35,771 bases of DNA from an uncultured Clostridia bacterium (GTDB lineage: Bacteria; Bacillota; Clostridia; Christensenellales; UBA1242), in the NCBI GenBank assembly GCA_947624105.1, contig CANQIX010000009.1, positions 1-35,771 on the forward strand. Reading direction: 5' to 3'. Below, piece by piece: positions 1,259-8,609 of the stretch. A program made the translations under genes and the position numbers. Positions within the stretch are counted from its first letter, which is position 1; each line of letters begins with the position of its first letter. Below the pieces are notes generated by a model. The model did not search any database. It worked only from the letters and a program-made list of their open reading frames with translations, and was not told the DNA's origin.

Positions 1259-1287
1259 TTGATTGCGCAAATTTTGGCGCTTAAAAT
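1259..1287 (+). promoter_or_regulatory. Sigma-A type promoter of the phage structural module, with an inverted repeat in the spacer
   Basis: TTGATT (1259-1264) and TAAAAT (1282-1287) are separated by exactly 17 bases, pointing towards the first phage gene. The spacer contains GCGC-AAATTTTG-GCGC (1265-1280), an inverted repeat that could be an operator covering the promoter. The promoter call rests on consensus match and spacing; the operator is inference. Confidence 0.55.
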
Positions 1288-1316
1288 ATCGGCAAAAGTC
1301 GCAAGGAGATAGAAGG

Positions 1317-1598
1317 GTGGACGAAGATAAAATTAAGGAAGCGCTATTTAAAAAGGCGGTGGGATTTTCTAGCAACGAAGTTGTTGAAGAATATTCTCTT
1401 GACGAAAACGGAAAAGAAGTTCTTAACAAGCGCAAAATCACAAGAAAATATAATCCGCCAGATATCGCAGCAGTGAAGATTTTATTGGAGAAAAACGAAA
1501 TAGATGAGAATCGGTTTTTGAATATGACATCTACTATGCTTAAAAAAGAGAAAAAGCGACTTTTAAAAATTTTAAAGGAGGAGAAAAGTGAAAGTTGA
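1317..1598 (+). CDS. Phage-associated small protein, possibly terminase small-subunit-like
   Basis: The preferred start is GTG at 1317, because AAGGAG (1304-1309) sits at the right distance; this gives 93 residues. The frame is open further upstream to 1263, but that would overlap the promoter. The protein is charged and mostly helical, with a central stretch KAVGFSSNEVVEEYSLDENG, then KRKITRKYNPPDIAAVKILL. This layout (short helices, then a PPD.AA.K.LL segment) resembles small proteins next to terminase and portal genes in Firmicutes phages, which I recall as small-terminase-like DNA-binding proteins. It is the first gene of the module. No large terminase follows, which is abnormal for this gene's usual position. 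The functional label is tentative. Confidence 0.6.
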   Translation: MDEDKIKEALFKKAVGFSSNEVVEEYSLDENGKEVLNKRKITRKYNPPDIAAVKILLEKNEIDENRFLNMTSTMLKKEKKRLLKILKEEKSES

Positions 1599-1812
1599 AA
1601 GATGTCAACACAAAGTAAAGTGCGATTTTGCCGGTTGTGGAAACTTTGCAGATTTTTATGTTTCAAAGCGCGGACTGATACACAACGAGTTTGCTTTTTG
1701 CAGCAGTTGTATGAAAGAACTTTATAAAATTCTGTCAAAAGAGTGCGTTCCAAAGGCTATCGAATCTCATTACAAACCAAATAGGAGGAAGAGAGATGAA
1801 CAAACAGATTAA
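1588..1812 (+). CDS. Cys-rich mini protein, probable zinc-binding, of the phage module
   Basis: This 74-residue protein starts with GTG at 1588, supported by a strong AAAGGAGG (1574-1582). It overlaps the preceding gene by 11 bases and the portal start by 17 bases, so all three are translationally linked. Cysteines lie in CQHKVKC-DFAGC (residues 6, 12, 17) and in CSSC (38, 41), with a histidine at 8, which would suit one zinc site. The C-terminal tail is basic (NRRKRDEQ). I do not recognise the family. The position before portal suggests a head-assembly or DNA-packaging accessory, but that is inference from context only. Confidence 0.65.
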   Translation: MKVERCQHKVKCDFAGCGNFADFYVSKRGLIHNEFAFCSSCMKELYKILSKECVPKAIESHYKPNRRKRDEQTD

Positions 1813-3649
1813 TCCTGTTGTAAAAGAGGTGCTTGCAGATTTTGAAGAGCGCGCTCGCGAAAGACGTCCGTTTGATGTGCAGTGGCAGATGAATATGAAC
1901 TTTTATATGGGAAATCAATTTTGTGGCGTCAACTACGGCGGAAACGTCGACGAGATAAACAGGCAATATTTTTGGGAGGAACGCGAAGTTTTTAACCATA
2001 TTGCCTCTAAGATAGATATAAGACTGTCAAAACTTACGCAAATAAAGCCAAATTTGAGGGTTTTTCCGGCATCAAACGAGGAAAGAGATTTATATACCGC
2101 GAAGGTGTCTAAAAAGATTTTAGACGCCGTTTCAGACAAATATAGTTTGCAGAAAAAGATAAATCAAGCAACAAAATGGAGTGAAATTTGCGGAACGAGT
2201 TTTTATAAGGTTTTTTGGAACACCAATTTGGGTCAAACGGTGGCTGTTGATGAAGATAACAAGGAGATAAAGGCGGGCGATGTCGACATCTCAGTTTGTT
2301 CGCCATTTGAAATCTATCCAGATTCGTCCTTCTGTGAAAATATCGAAGATTGCCAAAGTTTGATACACGCAAAGGCATATACAAGGAATGATGTTAGGTT
2401 GATGTATGGCATAGAGGTAGATGGGCAGAATATCGACATCTTTACGCTTAACAACGCAAAGAACCTCGGCGGACTTGGATATAACTCGATTGGAAGCAAG
2501 TTGATATCTTCGACAAAGAAAGATGCCGTGCTTGTTTTAGAAAAGTATGTTAGGCCAAGCGTGGAATATCCAAACGGAAGACTCATTATCGTTGCTGGCG
2601 ACAAACTTGTTTATGACGGAGAACTGCCTTACATCAATGGGCAGAACGGCAAGCGCGATTTTCCATTTATAAAGCAAGTTTGCGCTGACGAAATAGGCTC
2701 GTTCTGGGGAAAGAGTTTGATTGAAAGAATGATTCCGGTTCAACGCGCATACAACGCCGTGAAGAACAGAAAACACGAATATCTAAATCGACTTACTATG
2801 GGCGTGCTGACGGTGGAAGACGGCTCGGTTGATGTTGATAATTTGGAAGAAGAAGGGCTTGCACCTGGAAAGATATTAGTGTATAGACAGGGCGCAAACG
2901 CACCAAAATACCTCGAAAGCGAAAACATCTCGACCGACTTTGAAAAAGAGGAAGAAAGGCTTTTAAATGAATTTACATCGATAAGCGGAACGAATGACTT
3001 TGGCGATATAGAAAAGGTGTCGTCTTCGGTGAGCGGTGTTGCGCTGGAACTTCTTATCGACGAAAACGAATCGCGCCTTGCTTTTACTTCGGACAGTTTA
3101 AAAGAGGCAGTTAAAGACGTTGGACAGCACATTTTAAGGTTATATAAGCAATACGCCTCTCTGCCTAGAATAGCAAAGATTGTTGGAGAAAATGGCGAAC
3201 CAGAAATATTTTATTTTACAAGCAACGACATTTCAAGCGAAGATGTCAAAATCGACACTGACTATTTGCCGGTTGACACACTTTCTCAGCGCAGAGAGAT
3301 GGTGTATACACTCATTGAAAAAGGAATCCTAAATGACGATGATGGCAAACTCTCCGCAAGCACAAAAAACAAGATATTGGAGATGATTGGCTTTGGAGTT
3401 TGGGAAAGCGCAAAAGATGTTGAACAACTACACATTAGGAGAGCGGACAACGAAAACCTTGCAATGCTTAAAGGCAATGTGATGGAAGTTAAGGCGATTG
3501 ACAATCACGAACTGCACATAAATGAACATATTGCGTTTATGCTTTCTGGCAGTTTTGACTTTGATAACAGCGATGCCGAAAGGATATTTATGGAGCATAT
3601 TGCAAAACATAAGCAACTTTTAAAAGAAAATAAAAACGAAGAGGAATAA
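1796..3649 (+). CDS. Phage portal protein (P22/crAss-like podophage type)
   Basis: The 617-residue product is recognisable as a portal, the dodecameric ring at one vertex of a phage head through which DNA passes. Hallmarks are NMNFYMGNQF near residue 35, CSPFEIYPD near residue 165, and the wing/stem segment ERMIPVQRAYNAVKNRKHEY around residues 308-327. Phage head proteins of this size and pattern occur in podophages of Gram-positive gut bacteria. The start is fixed by AGGAGGA (1782-1788) before ATG. The C-terminal helices are acidic and Lys-rich, as is common. The gene is intact with no frameshift. It is followed after three bases by the scaffold gene, the usual head-gene order. Confidence 0.9.
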   Translation: MNKQINPVVKEVLADFEERARERRPFDVQWQMNMNFYMGNQFCGVNYGGNVDEINRQYFWEEREVFNHIASKIDIRLSKLTQIKPNLRVFPASNEERDLYTAKVSKKILDAVSDKYSLQKKINQATKWSEICGTSFYKVFWNTNLGQTVAVDEDNKEIKAGDVDISVCSPFEIYPDSSFCENIEDCQSLIHAKAYTRNDVRLMYGIEVDGQNIDIFTLNNAKNLGGLGYNSIGSKLISSTKKDAVLVLEKYVRPSVEYPNGRLIIVAGDKLVYDGELPYINGQNGKRDFPFIKQVCADEIGSFWGKSLIERMIPVQRAYNAVKNRKHEYLNRLTMGVLTVEDGSVDVDNLEEEGLAPGKILVYRQGANAPKYLESENISTDFEKEEERLLNEFTSISGTNDFGDIEKVSSSVSGVALELLIDENESRLAFTSDSLKEAVKDVGQHILRLYKQYASLPRIAKIVGENGEPEIFYFTSNDISSEDVKIDTDYLPVDTLSQRREMVYTLIEKGILNDDDGKLSASTKNKILEMIGFGVWESAKDVEQLHIRRADNENLAMLKGNVMEVKAIDNHELHINEHIAFMLSGSFDFDNSDAERIFMEHIAKHKQLLKENKNEEE

Positions 3650-3652
3650 CAA

Positions 3653-4294
3653 ATGGAAGAAGAGGAAAAGGATTGGGAACAACCGGAAGAATCAACTTTA
3701 AAGGAAGATGCCGGCTCCCAAGATAATGGTGAAAATGAACCTAAAGAGGAGGCAGATGCTTTAGAGAGCAAAGCGGAGAAAGGCGAAACTATCGGGAAGT
3801 TTAAAAGTGTAGAGGCTCTATATGAAGCATACAACAACCTCGAAAGGGAATTCACCAAAAAGAGTCAAAGACTTTCTCAGTTAGAAAAAGATAAAACGCA
3901 AGAGGAAGATAACACAAATGAAGTTGTCGATAAAAAACTCAACGCGTTCCTTTTAAGCAATGGGGAAGCACAAGGGTATGCGCAGATGCTTAAGGATAAG
4001 GTCTTAGCAGATGACACACTCAAAAAGATGGAAGATCCGTTTAGTTACGTGTGGGCGGAAATTGTTTTTGATAAATTGAAAGCAAACACTGACGGAGATT
4101 CCGTTGTTTACAACTATGTTTTAAATAACAAAGAGATAAAGGATATGGTTGTAAAGGATTATATAAGTCAACTAACGCAAAATGCCACTCCAATTAAGAT
4201 TGCCTCTTCCGGAAGCAGAGTTGCACAGAATGTTGTAACAAAGCCGGCAAATCTTAAAGATGCAAAAAGCGTGCTGTTTGACTTATTTTCTTAA
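3653..4294 (+). CDS. Phage scaffolding protein
   Basis: This 213-residue protein lies between portal and capsid genes, the standard site for a scaffold that templates procapsid assembly and is then removed. The first 50 residues are highly acidic and low in complexity. A helical segment follows, FKSVEALYEAYNNLEREFTK, then KSQRLSQLEKD, a pattern I recognise from scaffold proteins of clostridial phages. The C-terminal part (roughly 165-213) is likely the coat-binding helix region. No protease motif is visible, so exit rather than self-cleavage is the likelier fate, as in P22. The start follows GAGGA at about nine bases. Confidence 0.85.
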   Translation: MEEEEKDWEQPEESTLKEDAGSQDNGENEPKEEADALESKAEKGETIGKFKSVEALYEAYNNLEREFTKKSQRLSQLEKDKTQEEDNTNEVVDKKLNAFLLSNGEAQGYAQMLKDKVLADDTLKKMEDPFSYVWAEIVFDKLKANTDGDSVVYNYVLNNKEIKDMVVKDYISQLTQNATPIKIASSGSRVAQNVVTKPANLKDAKSVLFDLFS

Positions 4295-4312
4295 AGAAAG
4301 GAGAAAGATATA

Positions 4313-5503
4313 ATGGTTACATTAGAAAGTGCTGAAAATGCGCTAAAAGAGGTGTATTTGGGCGTTGTTGCAAATCAACTTAATGTTGCGGCAAATCCAC
4401 TTCTTGCACAAATCAAACATTCAAGCAATAACATCTTCGGCAAGGAAATTAAAAAGGTTGCACCAGTTGGAATTAACGGCGGAGTAGGTGCTACAAGCGA
4501 AGATGGAGCGTTGCCAGTTGTTGCAAAACAAAACTATGTTGAATTTGTTTCAACTCTTAAAAATCTCTATGGCAGATTTGAAATAACAGATAAGGCAGTT
4601 AGAGCAACTGCAAATAGCGTTTCGGGATTTGTAAATCTTTTGAACGATGAGATGGAAAGTTTAATAAAGGCAAGCAATTTCAACCTTGGAAGAATGCTTT
4701 TTGGAACTGGCTCTGGCTGTCTTGCAACAATAACTGCTATGGACGCGGACAACAAAAACGTTACCGTAGATTCAACTAGAAACTTGGTTGAAGGTATGGT
4801 TGTTTACTTCTATACTGAGGAAGATGAACTTGCATCTACTGCCACACCATTTACAATCACTTATGTAGACAGAGTTGAAAACAAAGTTTACACCGATGCT
4901 GGAAACTATACATCAAGTTCTGTTGGATATGGCAGTAAGATTTACAATCAAAAGTCAATCAATCAAGAGATTACCGGAATTGAAGGGCTTTTCGCTAATG
5001 AAACTCTCTACGGGCTTAAAAAGAGCGATTATGCTTGGCTTAAACCTTACGAAAATGCTGAACTATCATATTTAAGTGAAAACTTAATTCAAACGGTGAT
5101 TGATTACCTTGAAGAGAACAGAGATTCAAACGTAAACTACATTGCAACAACAAAATCTATTAGACGTTTGTTCCAAGAATATCTTGGTGCATACAGACGC
5201 AATATAGACGTTGCAGAACTTAACGGTGGATTTAAAACTATCGCATACAATGGCATTCCGGTTGTTGGAGATAGATTTGTTCCAGAAAAGACGATGTATC
5301 TTCTTAACACAAACGACTTCACAATGTATGAGATGGGAGATTGGAATTGGCTTTCTGACGAAAACGGCAGAATCTTAAAACAAATTCCAGGCTATGCAGC
5401 ATACACTGCAACACTTGTTAAGTATGCTGAACTTATCTGCGATAAGCCAGGCGGACAAGGCAAGATTTCAAACATTGCAGACACACTCACCGCAGCAGAA
5501 TAA
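4313..5503 (+). CDS. Phage major capsid protein (HK97-fold type)
   Basis: The 396-residue product has the organisation of HK97-fold coat proteins: a helical N-terminus, an inserted beta-rich region around residues 145-205 (cycling from LATITAMDAD to YTSSSVGYGS), and a C-terminal half with TTKSIRRLFQEYLG, GIPVVGDRFV and MYLLNTNDFTMY, typical of the P and A domains. There is no N-terminal delta domain long enough for a cleaved prohead form, matching the separate scaffold gene. A strong AAAGGAG precedes the ATG, and a terminator-like hairpin follows the stop. Both fit a gene expressed at high level. The reading frame is intact. Confidence 0.9.
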   Translation: MVTLESAENALKEVYLGVVANQLNVAANPLLAQIKHSSNNIFGKEIKKVAPVGINGGVGATSEDGALPVVAKQNYVEFVSTLKNLYGRFEITDKAVRATANSVSGFVNLLNDEMESLIKASNFNLGRMLFGTGSGCLATITAMDADNKNVTVDSTRNLVEGMVVYFYTEEDELASTATPFTITYVDRVENKVYTDAGNYTSSSVGYGSKIYNQKSINQEITGIEGLFANETLYGLKKSDYAWLKPYENAELSYLSENLIQTVIDYLEENRDSNVNYIATTKSIRRLFQEYLGAYRRNIDVAELNGGFKTIAYNGIPVVGDRFVPEKTMYLLNTNDFTMYEMGDWNWLSDENGRILKQIPGYAAYTATLVKYAELICDKPGGQGKISNIADTLTAAE

Positions 5504-5522
5504 ATTTTATATTCCTAAGTTT

Positions 5523-5553
5523 AGAGAAGCAGAAAGCCTGCTTCTCTTTTCGT
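5523..5553 (+). terminator. Intrinsic terminator after the capsid gene
   Basis: A 10-bp perfect stem AGAGAAGCAG (5523-5532) pairs with CTGCTTCTCT (5538-5547) around a 5-base loop, followed by TTTCGTT. Its place directly after the capsid gene, inside the phage operon, would lower expression of the connector and holin genes relative to coat, as in many phages. Confidence 0.75.
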
Positions 5554-5573
5554 TAGGTTTTTAAGGGAAAATT

Positions 5574-5897
5574 ATGGAAAATAAATCATTTAAAATTTAC
5601 AGCGATTGCCTTGATATAACAAAAAGGCTGAAAGAAATTGATAGGGGATATTTTGTTGTGTTCAACCTAAAACGCAAAAAGTTGGAACTGCACAACAGTT
5701 TGCAAAGCGATGACACGTTTTGCCTTACAATCCCTTATAACACCTTAGATGAGCGGACGATTAGCCTTGCTTTAAAAACGAGAAAGGAAAAGCAAGACGA
5801 ACTCTTTGAGGAGATTGAAGCGGAAAATGAGAAAAATCTTAAGGCGCAATGTCGCAAAATTTTGAATGAAGCGGAGGGTAGGTTGTATGACTGTTAA
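5574..5897 (+). CDS. Small conserved phage protein of unknown function
   Basis: This 107-residue protein lies between capsid and connector genes. The N-terminal half is beta-rich (RGYFVVFNLKRKKLELHNS, then FCLTIPYNTLDERT), and the C-terminal third is a charged helix rich in Glu and Lys. I recall similar small proteins behind capsid genes in Firmicutes phages but cannot name a function. The module's order would fit a head accessory or head-closure factor. The gene's end overlaps the next gene by 11 bases. The Shine-Dalgarno is weak (AAGGGAAA), with ATG at 5574. Confidence 0.7.
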   Translation: MENKSFKIYSDCLDITKRLKEIDRGYFVVFNLKRKKLELHNSLQSDDTFCLTIPYNTLDERTISLALKTRKEKQDELFEEIEAENEKNLKAQCRKILNEAEGRLYDC

Positions 5898-6447
5898 AGA
5901 GATAATTGCCATCGCTTTCGGCTTTGTTGGCGAAAGAGAGTTGGCAGAAAAGATACAAACAACTGCAGAATTAAACTCAGCAGAAACAAAGAAACTTAAT
6001 TTAATGCATAAATATTTCAATTTTTTAAATCAGGAGATTGCAACGGACTATTTGCCACTTTTAATTACCGAAGATATCGATGTCAAAAACTCCACACTAA
6101 ATTTTTCGACTTTATCTAAGAATCTTTTAAGCATATACGCAGTTAAAGGGAAATATGGCAGAAATGTTAGATACCGAAAATATCCAAACTATGTTGAGAT
6201 TATGGGGCACGCAACTAAACTTACGTATTCCTATCTTCCAGAAGAACTTTCAATAGACAGTAATGTCGACTTTTCAAACGGACTGACTGCAAGGATATTT
6301 GCTTACGGACTAGCAAGCGAATATCTGCTTTGCGATGGGCTTGGAGATGAGGCGGAAGTTTGGGAAGAGCGTTTTAAGGAGTCGTTGTTTGTGCTTTCAA
6401 GAAAACACACAGAGATGTGCCTTCCAAAGAGGAATTGGTTTTGCTAA
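5887..6447 (+). CDS. Head-tail connector/adaptor-like phage protein
   Basis: ATG at 5887 is chosen because GGAGGG (5873-5878) lies nine bases upstream; an in-frame ATG at 5866 would place the ribosome site inside the gene. The product is 186 residues. It begins with a helical region (MTVKEIIAIAFGFVG), continues with a helix-rich core and a short beta segment (NYVEIMGHATKLTYSYLPEE), and ends in a helix (TARIFAYGLASEYLL). This size, fold prediction and position match the gp4-like adaptor family that binds the portal in podophages. The match is by pattern and position, not by sequence search. The stop overlaps the start of the next gene. Confidence 0.65.
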   Translation: MTVKEIIAIAFGFVGERELAEKIQTTAELNSAETKKLNLMHKYFNFLNQEIATDYLPLLITEDIDVKNSTLNFSTLSKNLLSIYAVKGKYGRNVRYRKYPNYVEIMGHATKLTYSYLPEELSIDSNVDFSNGLTARIFAYGLASEYLLCDGLGDEAEVWEERFKESLFVLSRKHTEMCLPKRNWFC

Positions 6448-7940
6448 TTTATAAAAAACTAAGAAAGCACAGACATACCGCGGAGAAAGACATAGTATTT
6501 TCGGTTTTTGATGCTGGAATAAAGTCCAAAAAAGATGACAGCGTAGAAAATCTAACGGCTTGCAAAAACTCCTACAACTTTTCTCTTGCCGATGGTGCAC
6601 TAAAAACTGGGCTTGGCTTTAAGGACCTTGAAGTGCCTTACAGCGCAGCTGACTTAAGCAAATTGCATACCTTTGACTTTTTGGGCAGAGGTATAACCGA
6701 AATTAAGTGGATAGATTGCTACAGATTCAAAAACACCGAAGACGGCAAAAACTACTATCACTTAAATGTGGTAGATCAACAAGGGCGATTGTGGTATTGC
6801 GTGCTGCTTGAAGACGAACTTGGAATACCGGTCATAAAGAGCGATGTTGAGATAAAGGAGATTATCTCGTGTTTTGAATATCGAATCGGCGACAGAGATT
6901 GCATACTTTACTTCACGCCAGATGGACTTGTATATTCTTCGGCATACCAAACAAGCCTTTACAGTGAAGTCCCTCCACTGCTTTCTTGTGCGGTTCACTA
7001 TGATAAACTGTTTGGAATCACAAATTCAAACCGCAACGAACTTGTCTACCAGGAAAACTTAGATGTGCGCGAATGGGATAAAGAAACGTCTTCTGTAATA
7101 CAGTTCTTAGATCAGCGTGGTTCGTTTACTAAACTTGTTGTGTTCAGCAATTATGTATATTTATTCAGGGAGCACGGCATAACAAGAATCTCGGAATATA
7201 CACCTACAAAGGAGTTTACTTTTACTCATTTGTTCACTTCAACTTCGAGGATTTTTGAAGATTCGATATGCGTTTGCAACTCTGCCGTTTACTTTGTTAC
7301 AAGAGATGGTTTGTATGCCTTTAACGGCTCGTCTGTTACAAAAATTTGCACCGATTATGATGGATATTTCACAAAACTAGACAACTCAAATTGTGCCTCT
7401 TGTGCGGTAAACGGAAAGTATTATCTTGCAAGCCGACTAAACTTTGATGACGAAAGAAAAGTTGGTTGCGAAAGTGAGAATTTTGTGAACAATGTGCTGT
7501 TTGAAATTGATATAGAAAGCAAAAAGGTGGAGATTTTGCGCGGAGTTGACATAAAGCGCATTATCAAAATCGATTTGCCAGAATATTGTCGCGTTGCAGC
7601 GTGCTTTAATGGAAAACTTAGTTCTCACGTCGGTCAACTTGGAAATTACGGCAGTGCGTTTGACGATGACAGCGTAAAAGTGTGGGAATCGTTTGCTACA
7701 GACTTAGGCTATCAAGGTAAGAGAAAGAAGATAAAAGAGATTTTGCTCACAACAAAAACCGATTGCACAATCGAAATTATAAGCGACATAGAAAGCAAAA
7801 AATTCGATTTTGTGGGTGGGGAAAGAGAGCAGAGATTAAGCGTATCTTGCCTTGGAAATACCTTTAAATTTGTGATAAGCACGCCATCTAAAGAATGTGA
7901 AATCTGCAAACCAAAAATCGTATTCGACGTTGTTGTATGA
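6441..7940 (+). CDS. Phage tail hub/nozzle-like beta-propeller protein
   Basis: The frame is open from GTG at 6417, but TTG at 6441 is the better start: AGAGG (6428-6432) lies eight bases upstream and the overlap with the previous gene becomes seven bases; 499 residues result. The protein is rich in short beta strands with repeated blade-like units ending in aromatic-Gly patterns (YLFREHGITR, YFVTRDGLYAFNGSSV, KIDLPEYCRV). P22 gp10 and T7 gp12 nozzle proteins show this size and propeller-like make-up. Together with the adaptor and portal it would complete a portal-neck channel. No receptor-binding or depolymerase domain is visible. The assignment is from pattern and context. Confidence 0.55.
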   Translation: MLIYKKLRKHRHTAEKDIVFSVFDAGIKSKKDDSVENLTACKNSYNFSLADGALKTGLGFKDLEVPYSAADLSKLHTFDFLGRGITEIKWIDCYRFKNTEDGKNYYHLNVVDQQGRLWYCVLLEDELGIPVIKSDVEIKEIISCFEYRIGDRDCILYFTPDGLVYSSAYQTSLYSEVPPLLSCAVHYDKLFGITNSNRNELVYQENLDVREWDKETSSVIQFLDQRGSFTKLVVFSNYVYLFREHGITRISEYTPTKEFTFTHLFTSTSRIFEDSICVCNSAVYFVTRDGLYAFNGSSVTKICTDYDGYFTKLDNSNCASCAVNGKYYLASRLNFDDERKVGCESENFVNNVLFEIDIESKKVEILRGVDIKRIIKIDLPEYCRVAACFNGKLSSHVGQLGNYGSAFDDDSVKVWESFATDLGYQGKRKKIKEILLTTKTDCTIEIISDIESKKFDFVGGEREQRLSVSCLGNTFKFVISTPSKECEICKPKIVFDVVV

Positions 7941-8053
7941 AACTTATAGACAAAAACTATGCAAGATTCTACAACAAAAAATTGTTCTACCAATTTAGGC
8001 AGAATATAGTTGTCGATAAAACGTTAAATTTGCGTGGGAGAGAAGATGATTGA
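7937..8053 (+). CDS. 38-residue peptide translationally coupled to the nozzle-like gene
   Basis: ATG at 7937 overlaps the stop of the preceding gene in ATGA, the classic coupling arrangement. The product is 38 residues, basic and Tyr/Phe-rich in its first half (KLIDKNYARFYNKKLFYQ). Its end overlaps the start of the BhlA-like gene by eight bases. It has no membrane segment. I do not recognise it. The tight fit between two real genes supports translation, but a chance reading frame is possible. Confidence 0.4.
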   Translation: MKLIDKNYARFYNKKLFYQFRQNIVVDKTLNLRGREDD

Positions 8054-8297
8054 TTTTTGGAATGAACTTATTAGAATCGTAGTAAGTAATGGAATTTTTG
8101 CAGTCCTGTTTGTTTGGCTGTTCTTTACACAAATGAGGGATTCTCGCAAGCGCGAAGAGAAATATCAGCAGACGATTGAAAGTTTAAGCAAAGGTTTGAA
8201 TGTTTTAGATAAACTTGAGGAAGATGTCGAAGATATAAAGGATTTTTTAAAGGAGAAATCTAATGAAAAACTTGTTTCAAAAAATGAAAAAGTATAG
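8046..8297 (+). CDS. BhlA/UviB-type holin-like protein
   Basis: ATG at 8046 follows GGGAGAG (8036-8042) and gives 83 residues. A single N-terminal membrane segment (about residues 8-28, IVVSNGIFAVLFVWLFF) is followed by RDSRKREEKYQ and an amphipathic charged coil. This is the layout of the BhlA/UviB family, linked to holins and bacteriocin export in Firmicutes and their phages. It would insert in the cytoplasmic membrane with the coil inside the cell. It overlaps the next holin-like gene by 35 bases. No endolysin gene is nearby, so a lysis role is not secured. Confidence 0.75.
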   Translation: MIDFWNELIRIVVSNGIFAVLFVWLFFTQMRDSRKREEKYQQTIESLSKGLNVLDKLEEDVEDIKDFLKEKSNEKLVSKNEKV

Positions 8298-8499
8298 TTT
8301 TTGGGTGTCGTTTTCGGGCGCACTTATAATATTTTTAAATTGCCTTGCAAAGTTATTCAATTTTGAATTTGAAAGTGCAATAGTTGAAGAAGTTTTGCTT
8401 GCGTTTGCCGGCGTTTTGGTGGTGCTTGGGCTTGTTGTTGATGATTCAAACAGCAATGACGATGGCGACACAAATGAAGAGGAAAACGCAGAAAAGTAG
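8263..8499 (+). CDS. Phage holin, phi LC3-like
   Basis: This 78-residue protein has two membrane segments (about 12-29 and 41-59) separated by a short loop, a basic N-terminus and a very acidic tail (DSNSNDDGDTNEEENAE). The pattern FWVSFSGALIIFL, then VLVVLGLVVDD, resembles phi LC3-type holins that form membrane lesions for endolysin release. The start is set by AAAGGAG (8249-8255) seven bases before ATG. It is the last gene of the module; a terminator follows. In complete phages an endolysin gene would be expected next, and none is present. Confidence 0.78.
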   Translation: MKNLFQKMKKYSFWVSFSGALIIFLNCLAKLFNFEFESAIVEEVLLAFAGVLVVLGLVVDDSNSNDDGDTNEEENAEK

Positions 8500-8570
8500 A
8501 TGTATTAAGTTAAGATAAATACGGCATAAATATACTAAAATTTATATAAATATGCACAAAACAAAAGAAT

Positions 8571-8609
8571 AAGACCGCTTAAAATGGCGGTTTTATTTTT
8601 TATATTTTT
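8571..8609 (+). terminator. Intrinsic terminator closing the phage module
   Basis: AAGACCGC (8571-8578) pairs with GCGGTTTT (8587-8594) around TTAAAATG, with one G-T pair, followed by a T-rich run (ATTTTTTATATTTTT). It lies 70 bases after the holin stop and separates the module from the host gene at 8670. Confidence 0.75.

Follow-up and report, generated by a model that had tools for sequence, protein, structure and literature searches.

A conserved, split and probably gene transfer agent-like system of podovirus descent in uncultured Clostridia

Introduction

PBSX of Bacillus subtilis, a domesticated phage-like particle of a Gram-positive host, is long-tailed, and RcGTA, the gene transfer agent (GTA) of Rhodobacter capsulatus, has some of its genes outside the main cluster and a tail of another type than the podovirus-like module considered here. 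That module, a set of short-tailed-phage head genes flanked on both sides by host genes, lies in a 35,771-nucleotide stretch of DNA (hereafter the window; contig CANQIX010000009.1 of assembly GCA_947624105.1) from an uncultured Clostridia bacterium of the Christensenellales (UBA1242). An earlier note, made from the letters of the window alone, had described an intact head module set among housekeeping genes and had offered four explanations for it: a domesticated capsid, the head part of a dispersed GTA, a satellite that borrows a terminase, or an early-stage remnant. Of these four, our results favour the head part of a dispersed GTA-like system, given an unlinked intact terminase with a regulator and an SH3 gene, wide conservation, and joint loss of the parts.

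Judging by the parts of PMC12946183 (Nat Commun 2026) consulted, very few GTAs have been described, and FpGTA of Faecalibacterium, for which particles and packaged DNA of ~9 kb were shown, is the first podovirus-like one and among the very few outside the Alphaproteobacteria. It is the nearest published system that we found. FpGTA has podovirus-like small terminase (TerS), large terminase (TerL), portal, scaffold and capsid genes, a TerS without an evident DNA-binding domain, a host among the gut Clostridia, two unlinked loci (~125 kb apart in one strain) and, in those parts of the paper, no reported replication genes. The system described here likewise combines podovirus-like head genes with an unlinked second locus. 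The second locus of FpGTA carries baseplate, tail fibre, receptor-binding, holin and endolysin genes, whereas ours carries TerL, a RinA-like regulator and an SH3 protein, with the holins in the head operon; the locus that we found is thus not of the FpGTA type, and a third locus was not searched for. FpGTA, moreover, has been seen as particles, whereas the present system is known from genes and is likened to it by gene content rather than by sequence homology. RcGTA, as presented in the parts of PMC6854486 consulted, also has phage-derived head and packaging genes and a TerS without the N-terminal DNA-binding domain. The regulator of RcGTA is of the GafA type, whereas here a podovirus-like module goes with a RinA/Q-like regulator in Clostridia. 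We found no published account of the present system in the open-licence literature, preprints being outside the scope of the search.

Results and Discussion

Head genes and an unlinked large terminase

We conclude that the module is one half of a conserved, split, podovirus-derived GTA-like system and not a remnant. It is likely to encode an old and mainly vertically inherited GTA, or GTA-like particle, of short-tailed-phage (podovirus) descent that packages host DNA without sequence choice. The module consists of ten intact, mostly overlapping genes on the forward strand (positions 1317-8499; Table 1), and the portal, capsid and two holins proposed in the earlier note are firmly assigned by their family matches. 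Of 80 named relatives (the best 80 of at least 579), 71 have the complete set of ten genes in unchanged order, and the other nine reach a contig end first.

The earlier note had listed the large terminase as absent, which holds for the window and not for the genome, where the search that it proposed found the gene. The source genome (G000; 0.96 Mb, 50 contigs, 98% complete) gave one match to the TerL protein of a relative (L038), at 68% identity, on another contig. The gene (G000:C13:5790-7205, equal to L081:5790-7205) is a 471-aa open frame; the match spans one TAA, which is located before the start codon, and the open reading frame (ORF) itself is uninterrupted. The protein matches Terminase_6N (4e-14) and phrog_2 (9e-30), and Walker A, Walker B and three aspartates of the nuclease half, which we take to be the catalytic residues, are kept in 40 of 40 aligned proteins. 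The intact frame and conserved motifs point to a functional TerL.

Two genes accompany it, both of them also neighbours of TerL in unsplit relatives. One, c14, adjoins TerL on the opposite strand and divergently from it (L081:7304-8092) and encodes a 262-aa SH3-domain protein, for which wall binding, immunity and export are guesses at a role. The other, c13 (172 aa, G000:C13:8089-8607), is a RinA/Q-like activator that matches the phage late regulator families phrog_36 (1e-7) and phrog_248 (1e-4), the Q and RinA models themselves staying below their cut-offs.

A phage satellite that borrows the terminase of a helper, or some other mobile element, would fit the lack of a terminase within the window and the split location. 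We regard this as the least probable of the explanations considered: the genome has a conserved TerL of its own, the trees described below largely follow the host, and no integrase appears among the families listed for 100 flanking ORFs.

Distribution and joint loss

The system is widespread. Of 147 genomes sampled in the family, 133, from 41 of 42 genera, have the portal and 138 have TerL; both were present in 129 genomes, the portal only in four, TerL only in nine and neither in five (Fisher P 0.0004). A single portal match was seen in 111 of the 133 genomes, and the matches in the others were mostly pieces of one gene. Across the order, 172 of 297 genomes and 63 of 125 genera have the portal, leaving 125 genomes without it, and at least 17 families (17 by count of rows) hold it; in a sample of the class it was found in 29 of 391 genomes, and the capsid in 26. 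Candidatus Caccovivens faecavium and Candidatus Caccopulliclostridium gallistercoris are among the named relatives. The strain-unique module with dN/dS (the ratio of nonsynonymous to synonymous substitution) near 1 that the earlier note had named as a refutation is therefore not what we see, the large genes being far below 1 in close relatives.

Profiles of c13 and c14 were run on 23 of the 147 family genomes, namely the five without portal and TerL, five of the nine with TerL only, and 13 with both. The SH3 gene c14 was found in none of the five and in all 18 genomes with TerL. The activator c13 was matched at E 3e-27 or better in 17 of those 18 (the exception, G137, at 1.8e-7), and the five losers gave weak matches only, 4e-10 at best, of a kind that most other genomes also have beside a strong one. 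The loser genomes are 90-100% complete and belong to three genera in which other members do have the system, and hence the whole system was lost at least three times. One of them (G034) belongs to the window's own genus, in which the two loci are unlinked, and such a joint disappearance from two places makes it probable that the genes act together.

Among the TerL-only genomes, two were examined singly, as distinct from the other seven and from the four with the portal only: in G137 the 5.2-kb TerL contig ends before the portal would be reached, and G048 is taken up below. An empty site beside the ABC transporter in G034 could not be established, as the neighbouring c18 gene is absent there too.

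Joint loss also bears on the idea of a shell for storing protein or small molecules, encapsulin-like or otherwise, which would account for capsid genes kept without recognised phage replication genes. Such a shell is very improbable in our view, since the capsid is kept together with portal, connector and nozzle and with a terminase whose ATPase and nuclease motifs are conserved, and since portal and terminase were lost together in five genomes. This agrees with the preference for packaging over a shell expressed in the earlier note, which had rested on portal and neck genes.

Selection and descent

Selection was measured by the Nei-Gojobori method in the 13 pairs with a portal proportion of synonymous differences (pS) below 0.6 among the window and its 80 named relatives, none of which pairs includes the window. 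The portals of the seven closest pairs are 93-100% identical. These pairs include L105-L108 and L106-L118, which number among the nearest relatives of the window; L105 and L108 (Caccovivens) have 93% portal identity. For these pairs dN/dS is 0.004-0.049 for the portal and 0.018-0.156 for the capsid; it is 0.047-0.085 for the nozzle (six close pairs) and 0.029 and 0.058 for TerL (two close pairs). The module is under purifying selection in close relatives.

Trees were built from 41 of 43 genomes and rooted on L233; G034, which lacks the module, and G058, in which polA is in two pieces, were left out, and TerL was missing for G153. When TerL, portal and capsid are combined in one tree, 16 of 38 splits coincide with those for polA (mean 0.3 and maximum 2 in 200 label shuffles), and 15 of the 25 strong polA splits are recovered. 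Distances in polA and in the GTA genes correlate at 0.68, a value reached in none of 500 permutations. Descent is mainly vertical, with some exchange possible.

These results leave little room for a decaying prophage, or for recurrent independent prophage remnants at different sites, an explanation that we consider highly improbable. It could draw on the short or unseen c11 gene in the window's genus, on the short portals of genus g42 (both described below) and on the whole-system losses. Ten intact genes in most named relatives, low dN/dS in close pairs, congruence with polA and the single portal match of most family genomes speak against it. The composition of the module is also that of its host, with G+C at third codon positions of 0.378 against 0.382 in 13 neighbouring host genes and a correlation of relative synonymous codon usage of 0.93, which counts against decay as well.

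A shortened small terminase

The first gene of the module had been called small terminase-like. It is a TerS by its match to phrog_309, a terminase small subunit family, and in this the call stands; its start is most likely the GTG at 1317, preceded by AAGGAGA, rather than the TTG at 1263 from which a longer ORF reads. The window protein matches phrog_309 at E 1.9e-4 over profile positions 196-244 of 319, and 37 of 38 aligned TerS members match the same family (best 1.4e-8). Terminase_2 and helix-turn-helix (HTH) families are absent among the 14 Pfam families found for the 38 members at E<=0.1, as far as sequence comparison goes. The longest TerS ORF in 79 named relatives is 91-157 aa (median 102, starts not curated), and the TerS of four further loci (L046, L047, L048 and L230; 96-167 aa) matches phrog_309 by its C-terminal part only or, in L046, not at all. 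In family f33 (L233), by comparison, TerS is 177 aa long, its gene precedes that of TerL, and its match to phrog_309 (2.6e-21) extends over positions 126-252.

Given the C-terminal-only match and the longer form in f33, the window-type TerS is, by its profile matches, the C-terminal part of a genuine small terminase, and its N-terminal part was probably lost within the lineage. From the usual layout of TerS (PMC6854486, parts consulted), the lost part would be the DNA-binding one. A TerS without the N-terminal DNA-binding domain has been proposed as a mark of GTAs in the same source, and FpGTA shares the trait (PMC12946183, parts consulted). A specific DNA-binding domain is thus lacking in the window TerS, on sequence evidence, and not in that of f33.

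L233 (genome G178) is early-branching: it has the same head genes and an activator of the c13 type, and its long TerS gene precedes TerL, which is the phage arrangement. It may represent the state before TerS was shortened, or may still be a prophage.

Phage TerS proteins were also considered as the parent of the window TerS, and the direct comparison was rejected, as they belong to another TerS family (phrog_51 in L371), the f33 protein being the better comparison. Candidates picked by eye in four of 11 IMG/VR loci examined and in the clusters L304 and L308 lie upstream of TerL in all six, and five of them score above the cut-off for Terminase_2 or an HTH family.

The locus in relatives

Head loci were mapped in 30 further genomes of the family, in 12 genomes of the order (11 other families) and in eight elsewhere in the class. 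The common gene order is c13, c14 (opposite strand), TerL, TerS, a small Cys-rich (CxxC) protein, portal, scaffold, capsid, g6, connector, nozzle, variable genes, c11 (DUF7934), BhlA and holin. TerL lies within the mapped stretch in 21 of the 30 family loci and 11 of the 12 order loci, the twelfth of which begins at a contig start, and TerL, c13 and c14 are found together at the head locus in 25 of the 42 mapped relatives (18 of 30 and seven of 12). In two loci (L038 and L039) other genes stand between TerL and TerS. The full prophage at this locus that the earlier note had named as a refutation was not seen: relatives have TerL there, and no integrase is among the families listed for their flanks.

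In the window's genus TerL lies away from the head genes in all seven mapped genomes, at a distance of ~40-105 kb in the six that have both on one contig, and it lies apart in G010, G036 and G016 too. In G142 and G036 the TerL half is still near what we take to be the RNase J gene, which follows the unsplit locus in other genera, and it therefore seems that the head half, rather than the TerL half, has moved. TerL was seen in 13 of the 80 named relatives, five times at 5.9-8.1 kb and eight times at 2.5-3.6 kb from TerS. Where more than 5 kb upstream of TerS is available (53 relatives), 42 have no TerL there, so a split locus is frequent in the closest relatives.

Several loci of family f1 and one of family f20 (L229) have the same host genes on both flanks, presumably (names by recall, or by phrog_44 in seven of the 100 flanking ORFs) a deacetylase-like and an SSB-like (single-stranded DNA-binding) gene on one side and c16 and RNase J on the other. 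A shared site in two families speaks for a single old insertion; the flanks differ in other families and genera. The flank scan covered 100 of 122 ORFs at 22 of the 42 mapped loci, the remaining 22 ORFs having been dropped by hand; among 25 of the 31 phage families listed for the 100 ORFs there is no integrase family, and the hits to polymerase, topoisomerase and SSB families give the impression of cellular genes, without each having been verified. With housekeeping genes around the module in the window and the relatives' flanks scanned in this way, structural and packaging genes are found here without replication or integration genes, as in a GTA, and vertical inheritance with purifying selection (polA congruence; close pairs without the window) completes that picture.

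Within the window's genus, four genomes have a short c11 (c26), and in three, the window's included, c11 was not seen at the locus. The DUF7934 model finds nothing in G000, and it also misses G013, whose locus has c11 by a profile of our own. The interval between nozzle and BhlA holds variable genes and c11 in relatives and the 38-residue ORF alone in the window; an ATG ORF of 36-51 residues, similar by eye, is in this slot in 15 of 23 relatives examined (L101-L124), which bears out the small peptide that the earlier note had pointed to. In L045, a phrog_5302 tail protein is among the variable genes between nozzle and holins.

The TerL half has a further companion in the window's genus. A 750-870-aa surface-type protein, c37 (L081:3062-5659 (-), L038:3295-5571), with weak GLUG and List_Bact matches, adjoins TerL in six of the seven mapped genomes and lies between TerL and TerS in L038 and L039.

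Relatives filed as viruses

Alignment found 107 relatives in IMG/VR, of which 80 (L315-L394) were kept for the counts that follow; a search of viral contigs for close relatives with the portal alone confirmed none. A GTA-type TerS or c14 is carried by 53 of the 80, and so host GTA-type loci seem to be filed as viruses in IMG/VR, which suggests that a virus database may hold many such loci. Among the 27 that carry neither, L315 and L373 resemble GTA-type loci that have been cut, and the other 25 are phage-type in appearance, with eight of these lying on contigs of 50-61 kb. Phage-type contigs L371, L379, L383 and L394 (53-56 kb) and the clusters L304 and L308 have, in whole or in part, the same order of TerL, portal, scaffold, capsid, g6 and connector; the phage-type contigs of IMG/VR differ in having 32-41% portal identity, another TerS family and further phage-like small genes. 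Arthrobacter phages Jasmine and Adat and Microbacterium phage Shocker are among the nearest phages in GenBank (portal 22-24%, capsid ~28% identity) but are very distant, with phage genomes of 45-47 kb.

Genus f76.g214, of another order, has portal and scaffold-capsid-g6 on separate contigs in four mapped genomes (L300-L302 and L305 against L221, L222, L306 and L307), and two of its genomes also carry a phage-type cluster (L304, L308).

Proposed mechanism and its difficulties

We propose that on induction the RinA/Q-like activator would turn on both the head operon and the terminase gene unlinked to it, and that portal, scaffold and capsid would then form the head. The shortened TerS would recruit TerL to any DNA, TerL would fill the heads with random host DNA, connector and nozzle would close the short tail, and the two holins would help to release the particles. 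Delivery to a recipient, by way of a recipient-recognising protein, would complete the scheme. Packaging is expected to be random because the anatomy of TerS resembles that of RcGTA.

Several points weigh against a GTA. The system is known here from genes alone, and no particle, packaged DNA or transfer has been seen. Two holins are the lysis genes at the module; no endolysin or receptor-binding gene was recognised beside it in the window's genus, and no genome-wide search was made for either. The TerS identity comes from a weak family match of the window protein itself. The six more distant pairs have portal dN/dS of 0.17-0.35 and single genes up to 0.64, and small genes in single close pairs reach 0.70 (CxxC), 0.59 (connector) and 0.44 (holin). 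Among the 25 strong polA splits, five are in conflict with the combined tree, four with the portal, seven with the capsid and 11 with TerL. The lineage is not confined to the order, as the portal was found outside it in 16 sampled genomes of eight families (one genus accounts for five of these genomes, and the match is weak in two of the 16). G048 has kept the TerL locus with no portal detected. Finally, the competence gene comEC was tried as a co-inherited uptake gene and rejected, being present in 21 of 21 genomes with and without the module, so that its distribution gives transfer no support.

An alternative is a PBSX-like particle, one that packages host DNA or forms phage-like particles and kills neighbours without delivering genes. 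Conservation and purifying selection would look alike under this explanation, the place of the variable genes and c11 of relatives is taken in the window by the 38-residue ORF alone, and the discussion in PMC12946183, in the parts consulted, leaves the same question open for FpGTA. We nevertheless hold it to be unlikely, if clearly less so than decay, a satellite or a shell. TerL of G000 scores 28.1 bits against the PBSX terminase model TIGR01547, far below the cut-off of 105.05, and so falls outside that family; no immunity gene was recognised, though none was searched for and the SH3-domain protein is a candidate; and such particles would still need to bind cells.

A gene transfer agent thus remains our preferred explanation, and for its history we lean, by a little better than an even chance, towards the following account. 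A podovirus was domesticated once, in the ancestor of the order, giving rise to a GTA that was inherited with its own RinA-like activator and SH3 protein; the N-terminal DNA-binding part of TerS was lost after the early-branching f33 lineage had split off, in parallel to the alphaproteobacterial GTA; and the system is now split, reduced or lost in lineages with ~1 Mb genomes. If the system is a GTA, then, since it is order-wide and many of the genomes are of ~1 Mb, capsid-borne DNA exchange would be an old inherited trait of uncultured gut bacteria. TerL, the shortened TerS, the RinA-like activator and the SH3 protein would make a gene list for predicting producers, the loss lineages would be natural controls, f33 may show TerS before its shortening, and the split locus would show how such systems disperse. 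The random packaging of DNA reported for Christensenellaceae in PMC12946183, which names the Christensenellaceae genomes HGM11616 and QANA01 and, in the parts consulted, gives no gene cluster for the packaging, would also have a candidate source in this system.

Features of the window

The module is preceded by an ABC transporter gene on the opposite strand (425-1189) and followed by a small membrane-protein-like gene and then polA; polA, pheST, thiI, rny, tgt and ruvB were confirmed as neighbours in the window, in agreement with the housekeeping surroundings first described. No integrase or replication gene was recognised in the window, attachment-site repeats not having been searched for, and no tRNA gene is present in it, as the absence of a tRNA-type attachment site had been put.

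Table 1. Features of the head module, in window coordinates
Feature	Position	Strand	Basis or remark
Probable head-operon promoter, TTGATT-17-TAAAAT, then AAAGTYG element	1259..1287	+	Recurrence in relatives; consensus alone at chance level
TerS, small terminase subunit, GTA type, 93 aa, N-terminal part absent	1317..1598	+	phrog_309 match
Small Cys-rich (CxxC) protein, role unassigned	1588..1812	+	Similar genes precede portal in several related phage-type contigs
Portal protein, 617 aa	1796..3649	+	phrog_156 4e-39; P22_portal 88.3 bits
Probable scaffold protein	3653..4294	+	Position between portal and capsid; position conserved
Major capsid protein, podovirus type	4313..5503	+	NF033394 capsid_maj_Podo 225.6 bits (cut-off 80); phrog_14242 3e-52
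Terminator-like hairpin 3' of capsid gene	5523..5547	+	Similar hairpin in 30/75 related loci
g6, conserved small virion-module gene	5574..5897	+	Occurs in related phage-type contigs too
Probable head-to-tail connector (adaptor)	5866..6447	+	Position; conserved in relatives
Probable tail nozzle protein	6417..7940	+	Position and phrog_3287 (virion structural protein); weak PDB 7z47 match
38-residue basic micro-ORF	7937..8053	+	Similar ORFs in part of relatives
Holin, BhlA family	8034..8297	+	PF10960 57.6 bits (cut-off 22.6)
Holin, Phage_holin_1 / phrog_297	8263..8499	+	PF04531 25.5 bits (cut-off 22); phrog_297 1.6e-7
Terminator-like hairpin at operon end	8564..8601	+	Similar hairpin after last holin in 59/70 related loci

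Scaffold and connector had no counting match in the libraries searched, and the nozzle family was matched by phrog_3287 in 19 of 37 members at E<=1e-3. Sequence searches of the PDB gave one weak match for the portal (8jov, E 9e-8), a weak match of the nozzle to a 'Surface protein' (7z47, E 0.0015), none for the capsid, and designed proteins and other unrelated chains only for TerS.

The promoter proposed in the earlier note fares differently by consensus and by recurrence. Promoters found by consensus alone are at chance level (21 against 19.8 expected), but the arrangement with the downstream AAAGTYG element is found again in 46 of 77 regions upstream of related TerS genes, as against 0.06% of mononucleotide shuffles, the pattern having been composed after 18 of the 77 regions had been viewed. 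No motif common to the TerL and TerS upstream regions was found (none of 45 TerL regions).

Both terminators of that note are present as forward hairpins, two of the 12 terminator-like hairpins found over both strands against 5.2 expected; the recurrence counts in Table 1 have no shuffled control. A conserved terminator after the capsid gene was rejected, with none in the 23 relatives tested among L101-L124.

Two further forms of the locus were seen among relatives. L050 and genus g42 (G058, G079, G099, G117, G130 and G141) have portal frames of 351-369 aa against ~620 elsewhere, and L050 combines short scaffold, connector and nozzle genes with full-length TerL and capsid; this reduced form is possibly a miniature packaging machine. 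L043, L092 and L322 have two tandem capsid genes in the same locus.

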